From: a virus
Strand: one strand, 5' to 3'
Length of the DNA: 25,259 nucleotides
IMG/VR virus record: IMGVR_UViG_3300030098_007100
Span: 53,050 to 78,308 of that record
Positions within the stretch are counted from its first letter, which is position 1. Every line of letters starts with the position of its first letter. Shown here piece by piece: positions 926-13,995 of this stretch. A program made the translations under genes and the position numbers. The notes beneath the pieces are model-generated. The model ran no database searches and was not told the DNA's origin. It saw nothing but the letters and a program-made list of their open reading frames with translations.

Positions 926-3031
926 TTAGCCTCCCGGTGGGCCACTTTTGAGGTGTTTTGCAGCTGCTTTTTTCATTTTCCCACCTATACTATACTTATT
1001 TGGGCCTTGTTTGGCCAATTTTGTTATAAATTTCTTGTATGTACCCCTAGAAAACCTCTGATATGGCTCATTTTGTTCCTCTAAAGGCTCAAATGCACCT
1101 AAAATAGCTTCTTTTTGGTGGTTTTTCATGTCGTATTGGTCAATTTCCTTCGGATTTACCCACATAAAGTCAGTATGCTCCTCTGGTTGGAGTGATATAT
1201 CTCCTTTTGGTGCTCCACATTTGAAAAAATGAACGTTTTCATGCGTATTTAAGGCACTTAAATCCGAAATATCAAGATTTGTCTCTTCTTTTGTCTCTCT
1301 GTGGGCCCCATCAAGCGGATTTTCACCTTTTTTTAGGTGTCCTCCGGGCAAATCCCACATATTTCCCTTATCTGAGCGCTTTAAAATCAATATTTTGCCG
1401 CTATCATCGGCAATAATCACCTTTGAGACCATATCTGTGTCATTATCTCTGGTTAAGCGCTCATATAGTTCGTCAATATCGTCTAAATCTTCCCAATTAA
1501 ACTGTTCTGGGTCGAAATATTCGACTTTTTCCTCTTTTTCGGGGTCAAAACCCGCTTTTTCGTCACTTTTTGCCTCTTTTTCGTTAATTTGGTGCTGATA
1601 TTGGCCTAAAATGCCACTTTTTGGCTTAAAAAACACAAAATTGAAGGGATCTGACTCATCTTGACCCTCATGACCGTCTTTTAACTGCTTTTCAACCCCA
1701 AATTCATTGTTTTTCATGAATATGTGCCAAATTTTAAGTGCATCTGGGCTAGTTTCGTAAGAATCGGGCGCTAATCCCTCTTCAGCTAGCTCTAGAGCCA
1801 TTAAATACATGGTTTTGCCCACTTCTTTGCTGTTTTCGGGCGAAGATGACCAGGAAACTTCCCAATTTGGCACATCTGTGCGTTTTTCCATTGAAATAAA
1901 GGATTTTGTGTCTTTTTTCTTGCTATCAACGGGGTTTTTATCCATATCAAGCACATTAATAGTGATTTTGTTCGGAGATTTCGAAATATCGTAGAAAAAG
2001 TCGTCCGGACCCTTTACATTTTCTTCATTTTCTTCATTTTCTTCATTTTCTAAGAAAAGTTGCCAATTTTTATTTAAATTCTCTTTTACGACTGTGGTCT
2101 TACGAGCTTCTGGACTCCAGGTCTTAACATATTTCTTATCATCGTCAAAGATAGCTGATATTCCCCTTCCTGGATCCACAGCTTGGCCTTTAATAGTGCC
2201 GACATCTTTCCCCAATTCAAAGCCTGGGTCTAATATAACAAACTGTTTTTGACCATTTCTAACAGCATAACCAACATTATGTGGTCTAATGTCCCATGCA
2301 GGTAAATCAAATTGTGCTAGAAGGTCACGAATGTTTAATATGAGAGGATCGTTGACCAATTCTTCACCGTCGCCATAACTTACTGTATATTCTGCTCGTT
2401 TATTTATTCGCTCCGCAGCAATTTTAGGTATTGTTCTAGAATCAATTAATTTTTGGAACCAATATTGAAATTCTTCAAGAGGCTCCTCTTTCCATATGGG
2501 GAAAAACTCCTGCATCGCCTTCCAATCCTCTATTGGAGTCACTTTTTCGGATATAATCCAAAAATAATCTTTAGCACTATTGTAAACTTTAGGAATTAAT
2601 TCAGACGCGGTTTGATAAGAGGCTTTAGCCTCCTCTTTGTTCATCTCTCTGCTTCTTATTTGTTCTGGATAGCTATTTGCAGGGCCGACAATCTTTAAAA
2701 CTAGCTCAGGATTTTCTGGAACATCGAAAGTTGCTCTAAAAGAGCCTGCTCCAAGTTTAGTATAGCCTGCAGCCTCCATACATTTATAAAAATCTGGAGG
2801 AAAAACATCTTTTGATTGATCTCTAAGATCTCTTACGCACGGAAGATTGTCAGGACTTTTGCCAAAATATGTTTCTGCTGATTTTTCGGGTGAATCATCA
2901 TATTCATAGGGCGCATCATACTCATCAGTTTCTATTTCCTGACCTTTGGGCTTTTGTAGTTTGGTTTTTGCATAAACGTCTACATCTTCGGACTCATTTA
3001 AGAACCGATTCCAACCTTCAAAAAACTTCAT
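926..3031 (-). CDS. Tag-A fusion protein: kinase-like domain plus Nudix hydrolase
   Basis: I start at ATG 3031, not the upstream in-frame ATG 3058, because TAATG overlaps the stop of the preceding gene and the protein then begins with tag A (MKFFEGWNRFLNE, cleavage motif L-N-E). 701 residues. Residues 90-285 look like a protein-kinase fold: a Gly-rich LGAGSFRA loop, a Lys in VLKIVG, then WDIRPHNVGY and ILDPG in place of HRDxxxxN and DFG, so the catalytic Lys after the Asp is an Arg-Pro variant and activity is uncertain. Residues 317-331 (NKNWQLFLENE) resemble a second, internal tag, followed by three NEE repeats. A middle region (350-490) is unassigned. Residues 533-650 are a Nudix domain with a Nudix box (GHLKKGE, RETKEETNL) differing from consensus only near its end. 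A basic, Gly-rich tail follows. Likely a packaged phosphate-handling enzyme. Confidence 0.85.
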   Translation of the reverse strand: MKFFEGWNRFLNESEDVDVYAKTKLQKPKGQEIETDEYDAPYEYDDSPEKSAETYFGKSPDNLPCVRDLRDQSKDVFPPDFYKCMEAAGYTKLGAGSFRATFDVPENPELVLKIVGPANSYPEQIRSREMNKEEAKASYQTASELIPKVYNSAKDYFWIISEKVTPIEDWKAMQEFFPIWKEEPLEEFQYWFQKLIDSRTIPKIAAERINKRAEYTVSYGDGEELVNDPLILNIRDLLAQFDLPAWDIRPHNVGYAVRNGQKQFVILDPGFELGKDVGTIKGQAVDPGRGISAIFDDDKKYVKTWSPEARKTTVVKENLNKNWQLFLENEENEENEENVKGPDDFFYDISKSPNKITINVLDMDKNPVDSKKKDTKSFISMEKRTDVPNWEVSWSSSPENSKEVGKTMYLMALELAEEGLAPDSYETSPDALKIWHIFMKNNEFGVEKQLKDGHEGQDESDPFNFVFFKPKSGILGQYQHQINEKEAKSDEKAGFDPEKEEKVEYFDPEQFNWEDLDDIDELYERLTRDNDTDMVSKVIIADDSGKILILKRSDKGNMWDLPGGHLKKGENPLDGAHRETKEETNLDISDLSALNTHENVHFFKCGAPKGDISLQPEEHTDFMWVNPKEIDQYDMKNHQKEAILGAFEPLEEQNEPYQRFSRGTYKKFITKLAKQGPNKYSIGGKMKKAAAKHLKSGPPGG
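2026..2056. repeat. 9-bp tandem repeat inside the kinase/Nudix gene
   Basis: On the plus strand the unit ATTTTCTTC repeats three times and a partial fourth copy follows. On the coding strand it encodes repeated Glu-Asn-Glu triplets at the junction between the kinase-like part and the rest of the protein. In-frame units of 9 bp can expand or contract without breaking the gene, so this is a likely hypervariable linker. Confidence 0.8.
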
Positions 3032-3285
3032 TAGTCCCCGAACCCTGTTTCTTCCCATGGGTCGTCATCATCGCCACTATGAAAATCATATTCAAAGAGA
3101 CTATCTTCGATGTCACGACCGAAATCATATTCACTCCATTGTTCTTTTAACAATTCTTGAGTGAGAAATGCCATAGTTTCATCATAATGTTCTTGACCAA
3201 CAACTTCTTTCATTTCTTCTATGTTTCTGAGGGCCTCATTAATTTTTAATTTGCCCTTTTCATATTCAATACAAACTAAACACAT
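3031..3285 (-). CDS. Small acidic phage protein, unknown function
   Basis: 84 residues from ATG 3285. A GAAGAGGT-type ribosome site lies in the end of the upstream 41-codon frame. The protein starts MCLVCIEYEKGKL with a Cys-x-x-Cys pair, continues as a predicted helical segment (residues 12-50), and ends in an Asp/Glu-rich tail (GDDDDPWEETGFGD). Its stop overlaps the start of the kinase/Nudix gene by one base (TAATG), so the two are probably translationally coupled. No enzymatic motif is visible. The early Cys pair could bind metal only with a partner, since no second pair exists. Confidence 0.75.
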   Translation of the reverse strand: MCLVCIEYEKGKLKINEALRNIEEMKEVVGQEHYDETMAFLTQELLKEQWSEYDFGRDIEDSLFEYDFHSGDDDDPWEETGFGD

Positions 3286-3287
3286 AG

Positions 3288-3410
3288 TTATACCTCTTCT
3301 TCGTCTTCGTCTTCATCTTCGGCAATCATAACAACACTTTCCTCTGGAGACCCCAAAGGATTTTCAGGTCATTCATAAAGAGTTGCAAGCTCTTCTTTAA
3401 TTAGTTTCAT
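3288..3410 (-). pseudogene. Tag-B 41-codon frame interrupted by an in-frame UGA
   Basis: Starting at ATG 3410 the frame encodes MKLIKEELATLYE, then TGA (3369-3371), then continues open for 26 more codons (PENPLGSPEESVV...) into an acidic Asp/Glu tail and TAA at 3288. The start is a shortened tag-B motif (L-I-K-E-E-L) and overlaps the last codons of the nucleotidyltransferase gene. The acidic tail after the UGA has normal coding character, and a UGG-to-UGA change would explain the break. It could be a nonsense mutation, a sequence error, a readthrough site, or a 13-residue peptide that is functional as it stands. Confidence 0.5.
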
Positions 3411-4200
3411 TAAGACTGATTTTGATAATTTCACTTCCTATTCCTCCATTGACAGTCATCATATTATCATACGATACAATTCTTAAATTAGAGAGTCTCT
3501 GTAAATAGTCATTACGTCTTAGAACTTTAAAAACTAAATTTTCAATTGAATGCTCTCCACCTTTTTCTAATCCACCTTGTCTATATTTTTTTAATTTTTT
3601 CATAAGACGCTCAGATTGTTCATTTGCGGTTTTATAATCTTTTACTGCAAGCAGTTCATATACCTCATCAATATCGTTCATCCATTTTGCAGACTTCTTC
3701 TTTAATGATTCTTTATCTATTTGTGGATCATATTTTGTTGGAGTGTTATTCCATCTATCATACTTTATAGAATACACTCCTGTTGAATGGTGTGGCTCTT
3801 TTGAGTCCTGGACATACAATTCCACATCATGACCCTTCACTGTTATTTTATGAGTACGATTCCACATTGCGCTAGCGTTTCTGAAAAAATCTTTAACAAG
3901 CTTTTCATTTTCATCTACTTCTGCATAATCAACGATCAAATGTAAATCCACATCAGAATATTTAGACCAATTGTAGTTTGCTAGAGATCCAGTTAGAGTT
4001 ACATCTTCAACTAAGTTCCAATCTAAATCCAATGTTTTAAAAAAATCTTTGGCTATTTTATATAAATGTTCCGCAAGATAATTCTTTAAATTTAATCGAT
4101 CATCCCATATTACAGGATCTAAATTATCTTTGACCGCGACATTTTTAATATCTACGTCATCCGGATCAATATTTTCCTCTAAATAATCTTTCCATTTCAT
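3397..4200 (-). CDS. Tagged nucleotidyltransferase (Pol beta-type fold)
   Basis: 267 residues from ATG 4200, which overlaps the stop of the HAD gene as ATGA. Residues 69-85 carry the signature of the Pol beta-like nucleotidyltransferase superfamily: TGSLANYNWS followed by SDVDLHLIVD, with the metal-binding Asp pair at 83 and 85; a third acidic residue is probably in HDVELYV (about 125-127). Such enzymes transfer NMP groups to proteins, RNA or small molecules; substrate cannot be read here. The N-terminus MKWKDYLEE is a short tag-A-like sequence with L-E-E. A Lys/Arg-rich helical C-terminal half (180-240) could bind nucleic acid. It is in a row with a HAD phosphatase and a kinase. Confidence 0.85.
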   Translation of the reverse strand: MKWKDYLEENIDPDDVDIKNVAVKDNLDPVIWDDRLNLKNYLAEHLYKIAKDFFKTLDLDWNLVEDVTLTGSLANYNWSKYSDVDLHLIVDYAEVDENEKLVKDFFRNASAMWNRTHKITVKGHDVELYVQDSKEPHHSTGVYSIKYDRWNNTPTKYDPQIDKESLKKKSAKWMNDIDEVYELLAVKDYKTANEQSERLMKKLKKYRQGGLEKGGEHSIENLVFKVLRRNDYLQRLSNLRIVSYDNMMTVNGGIGSEIIKISLNETN

Positions 4201-4745
4201 TTTACAAAACCCTTTTCAAGTCTTTTATAATCTCCATATGGATCGGAGACAATAGCTTTAATTCCAGCCTCTTCAGCTGCTCTTATTTCCTCTGGATCAT
4301 CATCATGATGTACATCCGAACCTATTTCAATTAAGCCATCTTCAGCTTTTGCTTTTACCTCTCCGTTAGTAAATATGACATCTTGAATTGGCAATCCATG
4401 TTTTTTAACAAATTTCCAAACTGGCATTTGGAATTCTTCAAAGTACTTTCTAGGGGGATTGGTGTTTGGAAGATGTTTAAACCATTTCCCCTCCTCGTCT
4501 TGAAGTTCTTTGTGTCTTGAGGTAACAATAAATATTTTAGAGCCTTTCCTGTGATAATCCATTAGTATATCCATCATTTCTTGATGAGGCCCGTCGTAGA
4601 CCCAATCATCTTCTTCTTCACCCCAGTGAGATAATGACAAAGTGTCATCAAAATCGAAGGTGACAATTGCTGGAAATTTTGTTGCCTTGTTCTCTTCTTG
4701 ATTTTCAGTTAAATACTGTCGCCAATTTTCAAATAATAATTTCAT
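4197..4745 (-). CDS. Tag-A HAD-superfamily phosphatase
   Basis: 182 residues from ATG 4745. Tag A (MKLLFENWRQYLTE) occupies residues 1-14 with an L-T-E cleavage motif. The HAD core follows: motif I DFDDTLSLS (nucleophile and acid Asp at about 31 and 33), motif II VTSRH (about 74-78), a Lys in the KAKAEDG region as probable motif III, and an acidic motif IV near SDVHHDDD (143-150). The length suits a small cap-less or minimally capped HAD hydrolase. The substrate is unknown; phage HAD proteins include nucleotidases and polynucleotide phosphatases. Start directly abuts the kinase gene stop, and the end overlaps the nucleotidyltransferase start. Confidence 0.88.
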   Translation of the reverse strand: MKLLFENWRQYLTENQEENKATKFPAIVTFDFDDTLSLSHWGEEEDDWVYDGPHQEMMDILMDYHRKGSKIFIVTSRHKELQDEEGKWFKHLPNTNPPRKYFEEFQMPVWKFVKKHGLPIQDVIFTNGEVKAKAEDGLIEIGSDVHHDDDPEEIRAAEEAGIKAIVSDPYGDYKRLEKGFVK

Positions 4746-5690
4746 TTATAGTTCCCCAATCGTTGGAATATTTTTCTTCTCTCTTACCTGTGAATAACCA
4801 ATGTCAATGATAGCTATTTGACCATCTTTTTCCATTACATTGGAAGTTTTTAAATCAGGAAATTTAATACCATTCTTATTTAACCAGGTCAAACCTAAAG
4901 CTAATTGGTTTAAATAATTAGTTTTAACGCTTCCAAATATTTCTCTTACATGTTCCAACGCTTTAAGTGGGCTATCTAAAGTATCGTTGTATGCACCGCG
5001 GCTAAAAATCCACAAAGTGATTAATAATTTTGTCTCAAGTTTATCTAATCCAATCTGAGCAGCTAAATTTTCAAGAGTAGGTCTTATGTCGGATCCTTTT
5101 TTCTCTTCGCGTTCTAAAGATTCTGGATGTTTGTTAATATATTGCAACAAAGCACTCATCGAACCTTTTGCTTTCTCTAAATAATTTTCATCCCAATTAT
5201 AAAAAATATTATTTGTTTTAAGCTTGTGATATAAATTATTTGTAGTATCTACCATGGCGTTGTTTGGATAATCTAATAATTCATAAACAACAATATATGG
5301 CGCATGCCTTAACGTTTCAAGGTGCTTTGGGTCTCTTTGCACAACTAAAAATATTTTATATACATTTGGATGCTCTTTGTCAATTAATAAATTAGCAGCA
5401 CGCGCTTCAGAACTGTCCGCTGTGATTTTTAAAACCTTATCACCAAATTGCCATGCAGATCCTCTTGAGCCGGATCCTAAAAAATCTGGATCTCCATCAA
5501 GGCCCGCAACACTTTTTATTTTTTCTAGTTCTTCGTCTGAAAGTGGAAATTGGCGTCTAGGATCTTCTGATGCAATTTCTTCTAAGGTATCGTTAACAAA
5601 TCTTTTATTACTAGAGAGTAAATTAATCCTCTCGTAAAGAATTTCTTCCTCTTTCAAGTATTTCCTCCAATTTTCAAATAATAATTTCAT
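4746..5690 (-). CDS. Tag-A protein kinase
   Basis: 314 residues from ATG 5690. Residues 1-14 are tag A (MKLLFENWRKYLKE, L-K-E). A protein-kinase domain spans about 65-310: Gly-rich loop LGSGSRGSAW (71-80), ATP-binding Lys in VLKIT (88), hinge-like IVVYELLD (133-140), catalytic loop FPDLKTSN (277-284, with Asp 279, Lys 281 and Asn 284) and DIG (296-298) for DFG. All key catalytic residues appear present, so it is probably active, unlike the variant domain in the kinase/Nudix fusion. A long helical insertion (150-250) separates hinge and catalytic loop. If injected, it could phosphorylate host proteins at the start of infection, as known for phage kinases; the target is not known. Confidence 0.85.
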   Translation of the reverse strand: MKLLFENWRKYLKEEEILYERINLLSSNKRFVNDTLEEIASEDPRRQFPLSDEELEKIKSVAGLDGDPDFLGSGSRGSAWQFGDKVLKITADSSEARAANLLIDKEHPNVYKIFLVVQRDPKHLETLRHAPYIVVYELLDYPNNAMVDTTNNLYHKLKTNNIFYNWDENYLEKAKGSMSALLQYINKHPESLEREEKKGSDIRPTLENLAAQIGLDKLETKLLITLWIFSRGAYNDTLDSPLKALEHVREIFGSVKTNYLNQLALGLTWLNKNGIKFPDLKTSNVMEKDGQIAIIDIGYSQVREKKNIPTIGEL

Positions 5691-5693
5691 TTT

Positions 5694-6140
5694 TTATCCC
5701 TGTTGCCACTGAGTAAAACGTATTAACCTTTCACAGAACATGATTCTTTGTTTTACTTTATGGTCTAATTTAAATTGCATAACAATTTTATAATCTTCAT
5801 AGTTGTTTAACTTAGCTCTTTCAATTCTTATTTCCGCTTCAGAAAGTCTTGTGAGAGCTTGCATAAATTCAACCCTTGCAGATAAGTATAGCTTTTTAGC
5901 AATTAATTTTTCACCTTCCTTCACAAAACGCTCAGAATCGTGATATAGTGCAACAGCACATTCTGCCTCTGATTTCCCTGTACAATCTAACTGAGGCTTA
6001 CAATCATCGTCGAGCCTAATTCTCTCAGGCCCATCTTCGTATTGAATTGTAACTAATACATTAGCATTCGGGTCTTTTGCATATTGAGGCCCACACCCAA
6101 TAAAAAACACACTTAACATTATTATAGTTAAGCGTCTCAT
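5694..6140 (-). CDS. Lipoprotein of unknown function
   Basis: Starts at ATG 6140, where ATGA overlaps the upstream stop; an earlier in-frame start at 6173 would place charged residues before the signal. 148 residues. The N-terminus MRRLTIIMLSVFFIGCGPQ is a typical lipoprotein signal with the lipobox F-I-G-C, so Cys 16 should be lipidated and the protein membrane-anchored. The mature part has two further Cys (CKPQLDC, ECAV) and a long Arg/Lys/Glu-rich helical region with YLSARVEFMQALTRLSEAE suggestive of a helical hairpin. Could take part in lysis or membrane modification; no family recognised. Confidence 0.8.
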   Translation of the reverse strand: MRRLTIIMLSVFFIGCGPQYAKDPNANVLVTIQYEDGPERIRLDDDCKPQLDCTGKSEAECAVALYHDSERFVKEGEKLIAKKLYLSARVEFMQALTRLSEAEIRIERAKLNNYEDYKIVMQFKLDHKVKQRIMFCERLIRFTQWQQG

Positions 6141-6346
6141 TTTCTTTTCCTCTTTATTGTGTGTACATACCAATCATATAGTTTGTCGACAGTATTTTCA
6201 AGATTAAACCGCGCAGGAATTTTGCATATTGGAAAAACAGCATGCAATAAAAAAATAGCACCACGAAACATTAAAGTAATTCCAATCTTTCCAGCAAACA
6301 AAAAGTGGCTTATATACGTTTCATTGTTTTCCTCAAGATGTTTCAC
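6137..6346 (-). CDS. Small membrane protein, DUF6356-like
   Basis: 69 residues from GTG 6346, with GGAG about 10 bases upstream. The sequence pattern HLEENNETYISHFLFAGKIG, then MFRGAIFLLHAVFP, matches what I remember of the DUF6356 family (a His/Glu helix followed by one or two hydrophobic segments and a His-Ala-x-x-Pro turn). One clear hydrophobic segment covers residues 20-42. The C-terminus is basic (TIKRKRK). The gene overlaps the following lipoprotein start by four bases, so the two membrane proteins are co-translated. Function unknown. Confidence 0.7.
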   Translation of the reverse strand: MKHLEENNETYISHFLFAGKIGITLMFRGAIFLLHAVFPICKIPARFNLENTVDKLYDWYVHTIKRKRK

Positions 6347-6351
6347 TATTC

Positions 6352-6993
6352 TTATTCTCCTACTTTAACTAGTTCCTTCCTTTCTGCATCTAATTTATAT
6401 CCTGTAATTTCTGGATCTACTTCACCAACGTTGAAAAAATCAAACCCCGGTAAAATAGCTATTTTTTGTGGAGGGAAATATCCTCTATCAAGGAAAAATG
6501 CTGCCTGACCTACAACTTCTGTAAATAAAGCTCCTGCTGCTGAAGGAGGAACGGTCTTCATATGCCGATTATAAGAGGCAATTTCGCCCTGCAGGTCAAA
6601 ACTAGTTCCACCCTGACAATGTGTCATATAATCATGCACAGCCCGTAATTTTAAATTTGTTTTCGCGTCAAATATTTGATGATCTGTGCCTCCTTTCCAT
6701 ATTCTTAATATCTTGTTTTCAGACACATCTCTACACATCTCTTCGGAACTCTCATAAGGATTATCATCAACAAAATCAATATCAATTCCAAAACCAATTA
6801 TACGATCAAACATTTTATGCACAAATGGCTCTATTGCTTCAAATGCGCCTACGGCGCCCTCATCAAATATAGGAGCCTCATCATAAGCTTTTGCTACTAA
6901 TTCTTTATACTTGTCCCACCCATCAGGCCCAGGCTTAAGCATTAGCTTTTCTGTTAATAAGAATTTTCGCCAATTTTCAAATAGTAATCTCAT
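6352..6993 (-). CDS. Tag-A protein of unknown function with conserved His/Glu motif
   Basis: 213 residues from ATG 6993 (ATGA overlap with the upstream gene). Tag A is MRLLFENWRKFLLTE with L-T-E. The mature part contains LRAVHDYMTHCQGGTSF followed by GEIASYNRHM and a small-residue helix PPSAAGALFTEVVGQAAFFL. The arrangement H-D-x3-H, Glu and H could form a metal site, but I cannot place it in a named enzyme family. No membrane signal. Transcribed with the other tag-A genes, so probably also a packaged protein. Confidence 0.75.
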   Translation of the reverse strand: MRLLFENWRKFLLTEKLMLKPGPDGWDKYKELVAKAYDEAPIFDEGAVGAFEAIEPFVHKMFDRIIGFGIDIDFVDDNPYESSEEMCRDVSENKILRIWKGGTDHQIFDAKTNLKLRAVHDYMTHCQGGTSFDLQGEIASYNRHMKTVPPSAAGALFTEVVGQAAFFLDRGYFPPQKIAILPGFDFFNVGEVDPEITGYKLDAERKELVKVGE

Positions 6994-7244
6994 TCGTAAC
7001 CCTCCATATCGTATTTTAGCGTTTCGTCATCTCGCAACTGTATAAGATTTTCTTTAATCTCAACTAAATCTTCTGTGGTTGAACCTTGTCTCTCAAAAAT
7101 CTCTTCTAGAGAGATTATTTGTTCAATTGCTAAATTTATATACTCTATATAATTAGCATAGCGCTCGACGGCTGTAATTTCACTTGGAAAATCAACAACT
7201 TCTTCATTTATAATCTTTCGCCATTTTTCAAGTAGGAGTTTCAT
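6990..7244 (-). CDS. Short tag-A helical protein
   Basis: 84 residues from ATG 7244, overlapping the previous gene by ATGA and the next by ATGA. Tag A is a diverged copy, MKLLLEKWRKIINEEV, with I-I-N-E as possible cleavage site. The remainder is predicted almost wholly helical and acidic (YINLAIEQIISLEEIFER, VEIKENLIQLRDDE). No catalytic motif. This is the most diverged tag-A copy in DNA too. Confidence 0.75.
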   Translation of the reverse strand: MKLLLEKWRKIINEEVVDFPSEITAVERYANYIEYINLAIEQIISLEEIFERQGSTTEDLVEIKENLIQLRDDETLKYDMEGYE

Positions 7245-7675
7245 CGTTCATTTTTTTCCTGCCATTCTGCAGATTTAATATCTTCAGTGATCGGACCACC
7301 TTTGGCCCACGTTCTGCATGATCTAGCAGAATGACACTTAAAGTGGTGCATCCAACAATATCCAAGTTCCCCATCTTTGTCTGAGGTTTCTCCGGGCATA
7401 CAATCTTTCATGCGAGGAGAAATATCAAAAGCGACACAATTACCACACAAAGACTTTTGCGCAGCCTTTTCTGAGGTGTTCCATGCCTCGGCAATTTTTT
7501 GCCAATAGTCTCCAGGCTCATCAACGTTTAGAGGTCCATACTGAATGTGCTCTGCTTGAACTGCAGCGTCTCTGTTTCTAGTATTAAGCTCCAGATCCTG
7601 AGTTGCTGCAGGGCATAGAAGATTCTCTATAGTTTCTTTCAAATATTCTCGCCAATTTTCAAATAGGAGTTTCAT
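7241..7675 (-). CDS. Tag-A Cys-rich, probably metal-binding protein
   Basis: Start taken at ATG 7675 so that the protein begins with tag A (MKLLFENWREYLKE, L-K-E); an in-frame start at 7690 adds only five residues. 144 residues. The C-terminal half has many Cys and His: CGNCVAFD, MKDCMPG, then GYCWMHHFKCHSARSC and TWAKGG. This spacing suggests a Zn or Fe-S site with two or more CxxC-type ligands, similar to small high-potential iron-sulfur-like phage proteins, but the cofactor cannot be decided from sequence. It overlaps the upstream gene end by 17 bases. Confidence 0.78.
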   Translation of the reverse strand: MKLLFENWREYLKETIENLLCPAATQDLELNTRNRDAAVQAEHIQYGPLNVDEPGDYWQKIAEAWNTSEKAAQKSLCGNCVAFDISPRMKDCMPGETSDKDGELGYCWMHHFKCHSARSCRTWAKGGPITEDIKSAEWQEKNER

Positions 7676-8279
7676 CGACAACTTCCCCATCGCTCTCTAT
7701 AGCTCGATCTGGAATAATAACAGCCCAATCATCGCCCCATTGAGAGGCCGGTGGTACATCTCCTCTTCCTGGCCATGCAGAAAGAACGGAATATAAATTT
7801 CCTTGATCAAGCGCCTGTGTAACCGCTGGATCTTGTTGAAGATCCTCTGGAACATATTGTAATTCACTTGTTGGTCTAATAACAACAGATAATTCATCCG
7901 TTTTAAAGCTCTCTAGTGGTTGAGAAGTCGTATATGCATTAACTGTGATTGGTCCCTGTCTTTCTTCCTTTTCTACTTCTGTTTTTTGAGCACCTTCCAA
8001 TTGTGATGCCTCGTTGTCTGGAAGAACTAGGTTATAACCGACACTTGGAACACTAATGGTATATACTGCTTTGTTTGGATTTATTTCAATTTGTTCTAGA
8101 GCAGAATTAACCAAAGAAAGATCAAAGTCTGCAAATATTGAACCCTTTCCCGGCTCTTTGTGTCCCTTTTCAATATGACCCTTCGCCCAATCAGAAAAAA
8201 TAACCACCGCGTTATTTGTCTTCACAATTTCATTTTCTTCTTTTAAGAATTCTCGCCAATTTTCAAATAGTAGTTTCAT
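7659..8279 (-). CDS. Tag-A protein of unknown function
   Basis: 206 residues from ATG 8279; GAGGATAAACA precedes the start. Tag A is MKLLFENWREFLKE (L-K-E). The next part, VVIFSDWAKGHIEKGHKEPGKG, has two His and several Gly/Lys, followed by a region rich in beta-type residues (NKAVYTISVPSVGYNLVLP; ELSVVIRPTSELQYVP). The C-terminal WAVIIPDRAIESDGEVVDETPI is acidic. I recognise no family. It heads the run of tag-A genes reading towards position 3.4 kb. Confidence 0.75.
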   Translation of the reverse strand: MKLLFENWREFLKEENEIVKTNNAVVIFSDWAKGHIEKGHKEPGKGSIFADFDLSLVNSALEQIEINPNKAVYTISVPSVGYNLVLPDNEASQLEGAQKTEVEKEERQGPITVNAYTTSQPLESFKTDELSVVIRPTSELQYVPEDLQQDPAVTQALDQGNLYSVLSAWPGRGDVPPASQWGDDWAVIIPDRAIESDGEVVDETPI

Positions 8280-9762: not shown

Positions 9763-9957
9763 TTAAAAAGAGTCCGATTCTACTAAATCTAATAATTGCT
9801 CTTCCAAATCTAATATTCTATTTTCCAATTCATACGCTTCATCAACCATTTCATGCTTTCCATAGGATATTAAAGTTCGAACCTCTTTCAGTTTTGTATA
9901 AGCGTTTTTTATATCTCGTTTTATTCGACTTTCTTGTAGACTTATCACATTCTTCAT
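9763..9957 (-). CDS. Short helical acidic protein
   Basis: 64 residues from ATG 9957. Predicted all-helical with alternating charge (ESRIKRDIKNAYTKLKEV, ELENRILDLEEQLLDLVE), probably a two-helix hairpin. No ribosome site is visible; the start codon lies inside an 18-bp palindrome. This is the first minus-strand gene next to the only divergent intergenic region of the window. Function unknown. Confidence 0.7.
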   Translation of the reverse strand: MKNVISLQESRIKRDIKNAYTKLKEVRTLISYGKHEMVDEAYELENRILDLEEQLLDLVESDSF

Positions 9958-9993: not shown

Positions 9994-10010
9994 TTGGCAC
10001 GTAGTTTGCA
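9994..10010 (+). promoter_or_regulatory. Predicted sigma-54 (RpoN) promoter
   Basis: TTGGCACG, four bases, then TTGCA matches the sigma-54 consensus YTGGCACG-N4-TTGCW at every defined position. The invariant GG and GC are at the right spacing. A transcript would start near 10021, giving a leader of about 20 bases that contains the AAAGGAG ribosome site of the gene at 10041. No other equally good match was seen in the window. Confidence 0.7.
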
Positions 10011-10040
10011 TTTTAAAGTAGTAACATAAAGGAGAAAATC

Positions 10041-10478
10041 ATGGGAACATGTTTAATATTTATATTATCAAGCGGTTTAACGCTTGGTACGTTTGAATGT
10101 CAGCCTCAATTGTTTTATGGCGATGGGTTGGTTACACCACACGAAGTTGTATATACTTCACACATCGATGATTGCTGGGATGGTTATTTAGTACAAATTC
10201 CAAGCTATCGAGTATCTCTCAGGCCATCAGTCAGAGAGGTAAGATATCACACCATACGACGTCGACATATTAATAGAATCAGATATCGAGGAAAAGTATA
10301 TCGTCATAAAAAACATCGTATATATCGTAAAAGACCAATTGTAAGAAAAAGACATCCGAGGCTTAAGCCGATTGTAAGAAATAGGACTGTTATTAAAAAT
10401 AGAAGAGTTATAAACAATCACTATTATAATAATAAAAAGAAAAGAAGAGGAAAGAAGGGCAAAAAGCACAAAAAGTAA
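10041..10478 (+). CDS. Exported or membrane-linked very basic protein
   Basis: 145 residues from ATG 10041; AAAGGAG lies 6 bases upstream. It is one of only two plus-strand genes. The first 19 residues (MGTCLIFILSSGLTLGTFE) are hydrophobic like a signal peptide or anchor. Residues 20-65 contain two Cys (ECQP, DDCWDGYLVQIP). From about residue 66 it is extremely basic, with many R-x-R and KK pairs, ending KKKRRGKKGKKHKK. Such a tail suggests binding to nucleic acid, lipopolysaccharide or another polyanion. With its own sigma-54 type promoter it may be expressed under a different control from the phage around it, a lysogenic-conversion or host-response style of gene. Family not recognised. Confidence 0.75.
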   Translation: MGTCLIFILSSGLTLGTFECQPQLFYGDGLVTPHEVVYTSHIDDCWDGYLVQIPSYRVSLRPSVREVRYHTIRRRHINRIRYRGKVYRHKKHRIYRKRPIVRKRHPRLKPIVRNRTVIKNRRVINNHYYNNKKKRRGKKGKKHKK

Positions 10479-10766
10479 TTAATCAAACTGTCGCTTCTTT
10501 TGTTTAGGTCTGATCCAAGTATCTTCAGGATCCCAGTCTAGATTAATAATTAAATCTATGAATTTTTCATATTCATCTGGTCCTGATATTATAATTTCTT
10601 TGTCACCACCAAAACTAATGACGTAATATACTTTATTTTCGATTCTATGGACCTCTCCAATGGCGACTTCAATATTGTTAGGTTGGTTTTTGTTCAGTAC
10701 GACCTTTTCTTGCTTGATTCTAGTTTTTTTCGAGAGGGCCATATAATAAGTATGGCCAAAAACCAA
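10479..10766 (-). CDS. Small protein of unknown function
   Basis: 95 residues from TTG 10766, or 87 from ATG 10742 (MALSKKTRIKQ). The ATG lies in a hairpin and has no ribosome site; the TTG has TAGGA some 11 bases upstream. The core alternates hydrophobic and charged residues like a small beta sheet (NIEVAIGEVHRIENKVYYVISF, KEIIIS), followed by a helix (EYEKFIDLIINL) and a basic tail. It ends head-to-tail against the plus-strand basic gene. No family recognised. Confidence 0.65.
   Translation of the reverse strand: MVFGHTYYMALSKKTRIKQEKVVLNKNQPNNIEVAIGEVHRIENKVYYVISFGGDKEIIISGPDEYEKFIDLIINLDWDPEDTWIRPKQKKRQFD
10737..10757. promoter_or_regulatory. Inverted repeat covering a start codon
   Basis: GGCCATA and TATGGCC form a perfect 7-bp stem with a 7-base loop; the ATG at 10742 is inside the stem. 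In RNA this would hide that start codon, and in DNA it could be an operator. Confidence 0.4.
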
Positions 10767-10778
10767 AAATTTTTTTTC

Positions 10779-11027
10779 CTACATGTCAGACCATTTGTTA
10801 GAATAGTTCTCAATAAGCTGTAATAAGGAAAGTAAATCAAGTAAAATATTTTTTTTCAACTCTAAAGATGAATTAATATATAGGTCACTAGATTCGGCTA
10901 AGAAATTTTGTATTTCAGTTATGCACTCTTGTACGGCATCTATGTCGCCGGTATAATTTACGTCTTTAGTTGCGCGGTCTAGTTCCTCGTTGATGATGTT
11001 TTTAAGGTTCGCTATGTTTAAGCTCAT
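10779..11027 (-). CDS. Tag-B-like short helical protein
   Basis: 82 residues from ATG 11027, chosen because GGAGG lies 7 bases upstream; an in-frame start at 11045 lacks a site. The N-terminus MSLNIANLKNIINEELDRA follows the tag-B pattern (L-K-x-x-I-x-E-E-L) with I-N-E. The rest is helical (AVQECITEIQNFLAE, LELKKNILLDLLSLLQLIE). No catalytic motif. Probably a packaged small protein if the tag is a capsid signal. Confidence 0.72.
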   Translation of the reverse strand: MSLNIANLKNIINEELDRATKDVNYTGDIDAVQECITEIQNFLAESSDLYINSSLELKKNILLDLLSLLQLIENYSNKWSDM

Positions 11028-11084
11028 GTGGGCCTCCAGAAGCAATAATAAATAGAATATTCAAAATTTTTTTTCACTTTATTC

Positions 11085-11113
11085 TTTACAAACGCAAATA
11101 ACTCATGTATACT
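11085..11113 (+). promoter_or_regulatory. Sigma-70 promoter of the HNH gene, leaderless
   Basis: TTTACA (11085-11090), 17 bp, TATACT (11108-11113). Six bases separate the -10 box from ATG 11120, so the expected first transcribed base is the A of that ATG. There is no ribosome site in front of the start. Confidence 0.7.
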
Positions 11114-11119
11114 AGATCT

Positions 11120-11731
11120 ATGGAAACAAAAACTTGCACTAGTTGCAACACCACACTACCGAAAACTACCGAACATTTCGAACTTCGTCGAAAAAAACGG
11201 AAATCCGGAAACGGCTATTGTAAATATTTTAGGGCTATCTGCAAACCTTGCAAATATGCACAAAAACAAGAGTGGCGTAAAACCCCAGCCGGTAAACTTT
11301 CCAGGCGAATGCAGCGTCGACGGAGAAGAAAACTGCCACATGTCAAAATACGAAAAAATTGTACGAAAAGATTAAAAGAGTTTTTAAACACGCAGGGTGT
11401 ACAGAAAGACCGGTCAAGCAGTAAGTACTTCGATTTCAACCCTAGACAGCTTCAGGAGCATCTAGAATCGCAATTTACGCCAGAAATGAATTGGGATAAC
11501 TATGGTACGTATTGGCATATTGATCATATTATACCTTTGGCGTATTATGGTATTAGTGATGGCGATGATCCAAAAATTAGGGAAGCGTGGAGTTTAAAGA
11601 ATTTAAGACCGCTTGAGGCATCAAAGAATATTGCGAAAGGGTCTTATTATAATGGAAAAAGACACTCTTACTCAAATGTAAGTAATTCTTTAATAGCGTC
11701 GACAGTAGCCCATGGATCGCTTTCATCATAA
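11120..11731 (+). CDS. HNH endonuclease, probably a homing enzyme
   Basis: 203 residues from ATG 11120 (an upstream ATG at 11105 overlaps the promoter). An N-terminal zinc finger with CTSC and CKPC pairs (residues 6-46) is followed by a very basic region and then the HNH domain: WHIDHIIPL supplies the first His and the catalytic H, and WSLKNLRPLEASKNIAKG is the typical Asn-containing end. Free-standing HNH enzymes cut DNA at a site near their own gene and spread by repair. It interrupts a run of minus-strand tag-B genes, and its last 21 codons are antisense to the end of the next gene, so its stop is likely secondary to insertion. Confidence 0.85.
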   Translation: METKTCTSCNTTLPKTTEHFELRRKKRKSGNGYCKYFRAICKPCKYAQKQEWRKTPAGKLSRRMQRRRRRKLPHVKIRKNCTKRLKEFLNTQGVQKDRSSSKYFDFNPRQLQEHLESQFTPEMNWDNYGTYWHIDHIIPLAYYGISDGDDPKIREAWSLKNLRPLEASKNIAKGSYYNGKRHSYSNVSNSLIASTVAHGSLSS

Positions 11732-11920: not shown

Positions 11921-13174
11921 TTAACCAGCAGCTGTCGCGCTAGCTTTTGCACCAATACCAATTGCTTTATTTCCAGGCATTGCCTCTATAGCGATATTTT
12001 TTAAAGCCGCTTTGGCCGCTTCGAAGCGCTGCTTGCCAACAGGTTTTTTTCCAGCTTTTTGCATTGCTAGTTGATAGGAAGCATAAGTACTAGCAGCAAT
12101 TGCAGGTGCATCGATAGCTTTATCCGTTAGGTATTGTTTTAGTGCTGTTTGCCCTGCAGCCTTTTTCGCTGCGCCACCACCTGCAGCTGCAGCGCCAAGA
12201 CCTAGGCTTAACAATCCAGCTATAGCCATGGCTACATCAAATTTAGTTTTTTCATCTTGTGTAGCTTCTTCATATTCCCATGGTTGTTCCATTTTAGAAA
12301 CTTTGTCTGCCGGTCCAGTCGTCATGGTAGGCACGTCTTTCGATGCAGTCATATCATATATTTTATTGGCAGCTTTATTTGCTAGCCTTCCGGGCGCATT
12401 ATACGCTATCTTCGCACGTTTCTTAATACTATCCCACAGCCCCTCTTCAATCATGACGGATCTAAGCTCTTCTTTGATTAAGTCTTTAATATTAGATTTG
12501 GTTAGCTTGCTTTCTTTATAATATTTAGAAACTCTTTTTCGATGTCGTGCTGCACCACCAACCAATCCAGGTTGATGATGGTATGGTTCATCATGATATC
12601 GATCTTCAGATTTAGAGCTACTTTTTTCAACTGGCTGCGCGGAGAGGCTTTGAAGCCAAGAAAGTGTATCGGAAACTTTTTTCTTAGATTTTACTACTAG
12701 CATATCTTCATTTTGCAAATTATCTAGATCTTCTAAGGTGGTATTCATGACAGCATTCTTTGCAACCTCATCGTCGACAAATTTTTCCGCATGATCTTTA
12801 AACATCTGTAGCGCCTTTTCAGCTGAAGTATATCTTGAATCGACATGGCCAACACTACGCACTTCATTGGGCCCATGCGGCTCGCTTAAGCCAAGCATAA
12901 TAAAAACGTATTTGCTACCACTTTTTGCAATTGCAATTGCGCCTTCATCAGCTTCAAGATGCCGCTTAATATCCCCAAATGCGGGTTCGGCTTCGGCCTT
13001 TTGATCAAAATTTGGATCTTCTGGAATATAACCAAAATCTCTAATATTGAGCAGCGTGGCGTTTTGCATAAGATCAGCATTCTCATGCAATGCTACAGCA
13101 TTCTCATGCAATGCTATAGCAATTCGCATTTCTTCTTTAATGATTCGCTTAAGTTTTGTTTTAGAAAGACGCAC
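11921..13174 (-). CDS. Long tag-B protein with a second, internal tag
   Basis: 417 residues from GTG 13174, four bases after the upstream stop. It begins with tag B (MRLSKTKLKRIIKEEMR, I-K-E). Residues 60-200 form an unassigned domain. At about residue 224 a second full tag-B sequence appears (SKLTKSNIKDLIKEELRSV), followed by EGLWDSIKKRAKIAYNAPG and an Ala/Gly-rich region with a hydrophobic stretch (VAMAIAGLLSLGLGAAAAGG, about 322-342), then further Ala/Lys-rich helix. Looks like a fusion of two tagged genes. If the tag is a protease site, two products would form in the head. The Ala/Gly segment might insert into or cross a membrane during injection. No enzyme recognised. Confidence 0.8.
   Translation of the reverse strand: MRLSKTKLKRIIKEEMRIAIALHENAVALHENADLMQNATLLNIRDFGYIPEDPNFDQKAEAEPAFGDIKRHLEADEGAIAIAKSGSKYVFIMLGLSEPHGPNEVRSVGHVDSRYTSAEKALQMFKDHAEKFVDDEVAKNAVMNTTLEDLDNLQNEDMLVVKSKKKVSDTLSWLQSLSAQPVEKSSSKSEDRYHDEPYHHQPGLVGGAARHRKRVSKYYKESKLTKSNIKDLIKEELRSVMIEEGLWDSIKKRAKIAYNAPGRLANKAANKIYDMTASKDVPTMTTGPADKVSKMEQPWEYEEATQDEKTKFDVAMAIAGLLSLGLGAAAAGGGAAKKAAGQTALKQYLTDKAIDAPAIAASTYASYQLAMQKAGKKPVGKQRFEAAKAALKNIAIEAMPGNKAIGIGAKASATAAG
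13079..13120. repeat. 21-bp direct repeat in the tag-B fusion gene
   Basis: ATTCTCATGCAATGCTACAGC is followed at once by a copy with one change. On the coding strand it encodes a duplicated seven-residue unit (IALHENA then VALHENA) directly behind the N-terminal tag. An in-frame slippage duplication. Confidence 0.85.
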
Positions 13175-13177
13175 TAG

Positions 13178-13723
13178 CTAGCACCATTCCCCACGAATTC
13201 TTTTTTCATTATCCATTATTTCAGCTTCAGTCATCTGAGATGAATGTTTTTTCTGTCCGTTAATTACCCATACGCCAACGCGTTGACCGCCAGAATCATA
13301 ATATTCGTCTTTTACATCATCAAATGTATAATGGCAACTTTTATCCCATTTGCCACCAAAAAATTCATTAATGACGCCTGCACGTGCAGGATCATCAGCT
13401 TCATCAAACTCTTGATCTAGAATGGTTTCTAAGCCAGGAGACATTGTTAAAGCGTCTTCTAGAAAGTTAACTAGCGTTGCTTCTAGAACTTCGGTTATTT
13501 CTTTCCGCGCTGCCTCTTTTGTAAATTCGCCATATTTTTCTGAATCAGCTGAGTATTGATCAATTACTGAAAGTGCTACGTTTTGCATTGCCTCTCTCAT
13601 ATGGTCTAAGTCCTCATCGAAATCTTTTTTCATTTCGTCTGTTGCATCGAATTCTGCTTCATTGAGTACTGCCTTAAATTCTTCTCTAATAATTTTTTGT
13701 AACTGTGATTGTTTAAGTTTCAT
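13178..13723 (-). CDS. Tag-B acidic protein
   Basis: 181 residues from ATG 13723 behind GAGGATTAAAT. Tag B: MKLKQSQLQKIIREEFKAVL with I-R-E. The next 100 residues are acidic and helical (MKKDFDEDLDHMREAMQNV, RKEITEVLEATLVNFLEDAL). The C-terminal 45 residues contain KWDKSCHYTFDDVKDEYYD and RVGVWVINGQKK, which look like a small beta domain, and the chain ends in EWC. No known family. Sits in a row of three tag-B genes with 0-3 base spacing. Confidence 0.77.
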   Translation of the reverse strand: MKLKQSQLQKIIREEFKAVLNEAEFDATDEMKKDFDEDLDHMREAMQNVALSVIDQYSADSEKYGEFTKEAARKEITEVLEATLVNFLEDALTMSPGLETILDQEFDEADDPARAGVINEFFGGKWDKSCHYTFDDVKDEYYDSGGQRVGVWVINGQKKHSSQMTEAEIMDNEKRIRGEWC

Positions 13724-13725
13724 AT

Positions 13726-13995
13726 TTAATCCTCGTACTTTCGTTTAGATACTTGTACAATTTTAGCTAAGAATTTTTCAGATGTGTATCTTCCATGAGT
13801 CGGCGTAAATGCGGCTGGGTTTTCAAGTTTTTCTATATTCTTTTCATACCCATCATCATATATCTCTACCTCAACAAAATCTCCCGCTTTAAATTCGCCT
13901 TCATCCTCCCACTCTCCCGATTGGCCTTCTTCTCCAATCTCGTTAAGTAATTCTTCTTTAATAAATTGTTTTAATTGTGATTTAGTAAGTTTCAT
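13726..13995 (-). CDS. Tag-B protein with GDFV SH3-like segment
   Basis: 89 residues from ATG 13995, AAAGGAA upstream. Tag B: MKLTKSQLKQFIKEELLNE with I-K-E. After an acidic linker (EEGQSGEWEDEGEFK) comes KAGDFVEVEIYDDGYEKNIEKL, which resembles the GDLV signature of the early small proteins, then HGRYTSEKFLAKIVQVSKRKYED. A tag joined to an SH3/KOW-like domain, linking the two themes of the window. First of three consecutive tag-B genes. Confidence 0.77.
   Translation of the reverse strand: MKLTKSQLKQFIKEELLNEIGEEGQSGEWEDEGEFKAGDFVEVEIYDDGYEKNIEKLENPAAFTPTHGRYTSEKFLAKIVQVSKRKYED

Follow-up and report, generated by a model that had tools for sequence, protein, structure and literature searches.

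Phage genes are usually transcribed in early, middle and late programmes, through sigma-70-type promoters or phage factors. In the window analysed here, the whole stretch of 25,259 nucleotides at positions 53,050 to 78,308 of the IMG/VR virus record IMGVR_UViG_3300030098_007100, a gene for a small basic protein is preceded by an element that a preliminary description had read as a sigma-54 promoter. Does this element work as such a promoter and, if it does, what reads it? The comparisons below support the earlier reading. Judged from the sequences of this virus and its relatives, positions 9994–10010 very probably constitute a working sigma-54 (−24/−12) promoter of the downstream gene, one that would be read by host polymerase, activated by a host protein and carried between genomes as part of a moving cassette.

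The element reads TTGGCACGTAGTTTGCA on the plus strand, that is, TTGGCACG-TAGT-TTGCA, and all conserved positions are matched, as had been claimed. Within TGGCAC-N5-TTGC, the invariant GG and GC dinucleotides are separated by 10 nt, the spacing of sigma-54 promoters. In homologs, the counterpart of the −24 box at the same place is TGGCA, and that of the −12 box, at the same spacing, is TGCA. The −12 box and the ATG (10041) are separated by 30 nt in the window, in keeping with the placement of sigma-54 promoters, and by 23–39 nt in the other parsed family members; the correct position relative to the ribosome-binding site and the start codon, also asserted previously, is thus confirmed by direct reading (Table 1). 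The driven gene had further been called the lone basic plus-strand gene, of which ‘basic’ stands and ‘lone’ does not, because the endonuclease-VII-like gene is encoded on the plus strand as well.

Table 1. Features of the window and upstream boxes of the protein-selected homologs
Feature	Position	Strand	Sequence or remark
−24 box	9994–10001	+	TTGGCACG; invariant GG at 9996–9997; direct reading
−12 box	10006–10010	+	TTGCA; invariant GC at 10008–10009; direct reading
Predicted transcription start	10019–10023	+	~10021, 12 nt past the −12 C; inferred from sigma-54 promoter geometry
Ribosome-binding site	10028–10034	+	AAAGGAG; direct reading
Gene for 145-aa basic protein	10041–10478	+	ORF; Cys4 and Cys20, PHEVVYTSH motif, Lys/Arg/His-rich tail
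Small gene, divergent, upstream	9763–9957	−	Cluster 8; three further phages have relatives next to or close to the family gene
Small gene, convergent, downstream	10479–10766	−	Cluster 13; two further phages have relatives close to the family gene
Endonuclease-VII-like gene	11105–11731	+	Another plus-strand gene of the window
Tagged proteins	3–635, 3397–8279, 10779–11045, 11921–13995		
Upstream boxes, G007			ATGGCATTGATATTGCA
Upstream boxes, G003			TTGGCATACAATATGCA
Upstream boxes, G080			TTGGCATGGCTGGTGCA
Upstream boxes, G025			TTGGCACAACATATGCA
Upstream boxes, L251			TTGGCACGGGAGTTGCA

A search with TGGCACGNNNNTTGCW at 0 mismatches returned one site in the window, at 9994–10010, and the same single perfect match across the entire virus record of 85,395 bp. 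On a sigma-54 matrix built from approximate frequencies, the site reached 21.4, compared to 15.1 for the runner-up in the window and 14.6 for the best position in 26 kb of neighbouring sequence, so that on this approximate matrix it stands about six bits above every other position in 51 kb. None of 120 shuffled 25-kb sequences attained the score of the site (best shuffle, 20.5), in line with the previous assertion that a chance match of this quality is unlikely in 25 kb. The bare core TGG-N9-TGC is common, with 20 occurrences in the window vs. 10 expected, and the evidence therefore rests on the full boxes, their position and their conservation. For sigma-70, the best match to TTGACA-N16–18-TATAAT in the window agreed in 8 of 12 positions, a value that 86% of the shuffles reached, and no sigma-70-like match above chance was found at the tested sites.

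Apart from a second assembly of this virus, 100% identical over 6.4 kb, the initial virus scan returned nothing; related viruses were therefore gathered via other genes of the record and then searched whole. This yielded seven non-self homologs (G007 and G003, then by profile G080, G025, G057, L251 and G022), all of which were chosen by protein similarity and none by upstream DNA. TGG-N9-TGC was found 39–55 nt ahead of the gene (T of TGG to start) in five of the seven (Table 1), so that the conservation of the element where the gene is present, proposed earlier as a check, is borne out in most of these homologs; in L251, where the first ATG directly precedes the conserved Cys codon, the start is uncertain. 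The G057 homolog has no boxes; a recA-like gene precedes it in the same orientation. The G022 homolog (L275, from a 185-kb phage record) has none either and carries TTGAAA-17-TATAAT instead, as read from the printed sequence; compared to the boxed homologs, it presents the same gene with a different class of promoter, a natural switch. By resampling (4 of the 5 positives tested), the chance of finding TGG-N9-TGC in a 55-nt upstream window is 0.003–0.008, which gives ~1 × 10−9 for five of seven (binomial, with 0.0081 used throughout). The fuller pattern TGGCAN6DTGCA occurs six times in the ~389 kb of five records (G000, G003, G007, G025 and G080), and five of these occurrences lie ahead of the family gene. 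The regions compared contain 177 ORFs that are 80 aa or longer. Five of these have TGG-N9-TGC at −75 to −15, four of them family members; the member in G007 escapes this count on account of an ATG further upstream in its frame.

The family can also be retrieved from DNA. All IMG/VR contigs were scanned with a pattern consisting of the boxes, GGAG, ATG and a Cys codon at position 4, in which protein information was otherwise restricted to two T positions after the Cys codon. The scan produced 22 stretches, 19 of them distinct; 15 of the 19 encode the same family (ten new members) and four encode something else. Because loci selected in this manner carry TGGCA/TGCA by construction, they count for specificity only. 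The positions that the pattern leaves free were inspected in 16 sequences (the 15 scan-derived members and L251): T precedes TGG in 15 of 16, C or T follows TGGCA in 16 of 16, and T precedes TGC in 12 of 16, so these positions also agree with the sigma-54 consensus. Computation shows a canonical sigma-54 promoter architecture that selection has kept together with a single phage gene family, and a family defined jointly by promoter and sequence is new. Outside the family, the contigs L257 and L265 share GTGGCACATAGCGTGCA ahead of a small gene that starts MDNCFICGR and has zinc-finger-like cysteines; the boxes at these two loci either are chance matches or mark a further phage gene that has sigma-54-like boxes.

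The conserved boxes could, in principle, bind some other host- or phage-encoded regulator that recognises TGGCA-N7-TGCA, and a frequency of about one site per genome would suit a single-gene operator. This is unlikely, however, given that both sigma-54 boxes are present with the exact spacing and at the right distance from the start, that the unconstrained positions track the sigma-54 consensus, that TGGCA-N7-TGCA is no inverted repeat, and that no competing promoter rises above chance at the tested sites. It is very unlikely that the sigma-54 holoenzyme binds mainly to silence the gene, with a closed complex that blocks until it is removed and with expression from read-through or another promoter. 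Closed sigma-54 complexes are indeed inert without an activator (PMC7057263), and same-strand genes precede the family gene in several phages, but a ribosome-binding site and a start codon follow the boxes at a normal distance, and in the window and several relatives the gene lies opposite to its neighbours, so that read-through from them cannot express it. A fortuitous match can be rejected, and a conventional sigma-70 promoter with a TTGGCA-like −35 box is extremely unlikely. The abundance of the bare core speaks in their favour; against them stand the shuffle tests, the sole perfect site in 85 kb, the conservation of the boxes in diverged homologs, the retrieval of the family by the promoter pattern, and a best sigma-70 match in the window that does not exceed shuffles, TTGGCA as −35 included.

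Family genes were found in two genome contexts, and sigma-54 boxes occur in both. In the first, the gene is located downstream of a recA-like gene in a same-strand replication cluster; in the second, it lies, often on the opposite strand, among genes whose products bear the N-terminal tags MKLLFENWR or MKLTKSxLKQIIKEEL. The window protein forms a supported clade (99/99) with L266, from the tag context, and L263, from the recA context; the window and L263 thus differ in context and both have boxes. A clade that spans the two contexts implies that the gene was relocated with its promoter retained. Near-identical starts, MKLLFENWRxYL or MKLTKSxLKQIIKEEL, are present on many unrelated proteins, in related phages too, and recall the capsid-targeting sequences of T4 internal proteins; by this analogy, the tags may label proteins that are packaged into the head.

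The 15 aligned members have in common Cys4, Cys20, Pro33 and a hydrophobic stretch between the cysteines, as well as a PHxVVYTSH motif and a Lys/Arg/His-rich tail. Cys4 is imposed by the search pattern in the DNA-selected members and is equally present in all protein-selected members, allowing for the start of L251. The window gene product has no match in Pfam, PHROGs or PDB; no family member matches PHROGs, and the family profile is without a PDB match. No relatives were found in cultured phages, nor, by an exact-peptide scan, in bacterial genomes, nor with the family profile in 49 mostly Myxococcota/delta genomes, a scan that had no positive control. A weak AF2 model (mean pLDDT 64, with ten-residue blocks at 67–85 across residues 1–70) contains strands and one short helix and gave no fold match. 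The N-terminus might anchor the protein in the membrane, be cleaved off as a signal or form a hairpin closed by the cysteines, and the protein may act on nucleic acid or at the envelope. Small cationic phage proteins include lysis or envelope-active peptides and DNA-binding proteins. The family protein resembles these in being small and basic and in having an amidase gene nearby in G080 and G025, and differs from them in that it has no sequence or fold match and that no amidase relative adjoins the family gene in the remaining contexts compared. The hydrophobic N-terminus, together with the cationic tail and the nearby amidase gene in those two phages, hints at an envelope role.

With regard to what reads the promoter, no sigma-54 DNA-binding domain was detected in 16 phage records, and a phage-encoded sigma-54 was accordingly rejected for these. 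Searches with PF00158 revealed no clear phage-encoded activator in the phage records examined, several of which are fragments. The match in G007 is ClpX; the match in G003, a 436-aa frame with 22.8 bits, is just over the cut-off and equals the G007 ClpX frame in length; other records have AAA-type frames of ~361–366 aa that fall below the threshold. Given neither a phage sigma-54 nor a clear phage activator, the simplest reading, and the most likely one on this genomic evidence, is that host sigma-54 RNA polymerase and a host enhancer-binding protein would serve the promoter. Sigma-54 activators have binding sites ~100–150 bp upstream (PMC7057263); no upstream motif of the NtrC, NorR or ZraR type was recognised, just a stray TGT-N10-ACA. 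Over 0.9 Mb of related phage DNA, TGGCA-N7-TGCA occurs at background level compared to other spacings, and this lack of enrichment indicates one gene rather than a phage-wide promoter class, so that a phage-wide sigma-54 regulon was discarded. Sigma-54 has been connected with how cells control their exterior, and Cyanobacteria lack it (PMC3162934); under the host-polymerase reading, the hosts must possess it, which would exclude Cyanobacteria, for example. The virus also encodes a 710-aa lipoprotein-like protein (L003:15415-17547) with repeated CNGxDxDCDGxxDE and a VWA-like C-terminus, which is unusual for a phage. The proteins that this MopE-type VWA lipoprotein resembles are mostly from Myxococcota and deltaproteobacteria, and the likeness lies largely in its Asp/Cys-rich repeats, which gives a weak hint that the host may belong to Myxococcota or other deltaproteobacteria.

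Under the sigma-54 promoter reading, host RNA polymerase with host sigma-54 would bind the boxes and wait as a closed complex. An AAA+ enhancer-binding protein of the host, itself switched on by a signal of stress or nutrient state, would then open this complex. Transcription would begin near 10021 and yield a short leader with a good ribosome-binding site, and the product would be a small protein in which two conserved cysteines flank a short hydrophobic N-terminal segment, followed by a tail of strongly cationic character. The gene would travel between phage genomes together with its promoter, as one cassette. We infer the RpoN dependence, the use of a host activator and the kind of signal, which by analogy could be, for example, damage to RNA or stress at the envelope. 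On balance, we favour the broader proposal that the gene and its host-type sigma-54 promoter form a portable viral cassette among diverse uncultured phages, one that would read the stress or nutrient state of the host outside the phage temporal programme and amount to a single-gene viral sigma-54 regulon. If this is true, highly diverged phages wire one function to the host sensory system, and a single RpoN-dependent viral transcript is the testable prediction.

The site is like bacterial −24/−12 sigma-54 (RpoN) promoters in its TGGCAY and TTGCA boxes, their spacing and their place before the ribosome-binding site (PMC7057263, PMC3162934), and in the linkage of one strong site with one gene; unlike these, it is phage-borne, tied to a gene family that has been seen in phages alone and without a recognised activator site. 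In enterobacteria, envelope and RNA damage act via sigma-54 activators, namely PspF for Psp and RtcR for the RNA-repair operon (PMC3844500, PMC9879122). Similarly, sigma-54 with a damage-sensing activator could fire during infection, although Psp and RtcR drive host genes, whereas the gene driven here is viral, and PspF and RtcR serve here as analogies. The Xp10 protein P7 inhibits both the sigma-70 and the sigma-54 forms of the host polymerase (PMC5053324); in both cases a phage meets sigma-54 polymerase, which P7 inhibits, whereas the phage of the window appears to use it. A putative phage-encoded sigma-54-like factor has also been reported (PMC7693777). Our search, largely confined to the open-access literature, also turned up work on host sigma-54 regulons, but no phage gene controlled by a conserved sigma-54 promoter.

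Several other features of the virus were observed. An adenylosuccinate-synthetase-like gene (phrog_1211; L003:12096-13091, G000 ~46.1–47.1 kb) has an active-site loop that reads GDCGKGK, with the Asp retained, and has relatives on more than 300 IMG/VR stretches; it might belong to a modified-base pathway. By eye, L004:2666-4202 and 6421-6996 encode a PAP2-like phosphatase and a fatty-acid-hydroxylase-like protein, and a C-terminal part of GroEL (phrog_5725) is situated close to the end of the record. The second assembly (L007) is 100% identical to the window until 16168, and its last 311 bases differ; the divergence point at ~16168, which adjoins similar short MKVGDLV genes, is either a variant junction or a misassembly. 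Finally, window positions 926–3058 encode another 710-aa protein, with a C-terminal NUDIX domain and a long N-terminal part that weakly matches YrbL-PhoP_reg.
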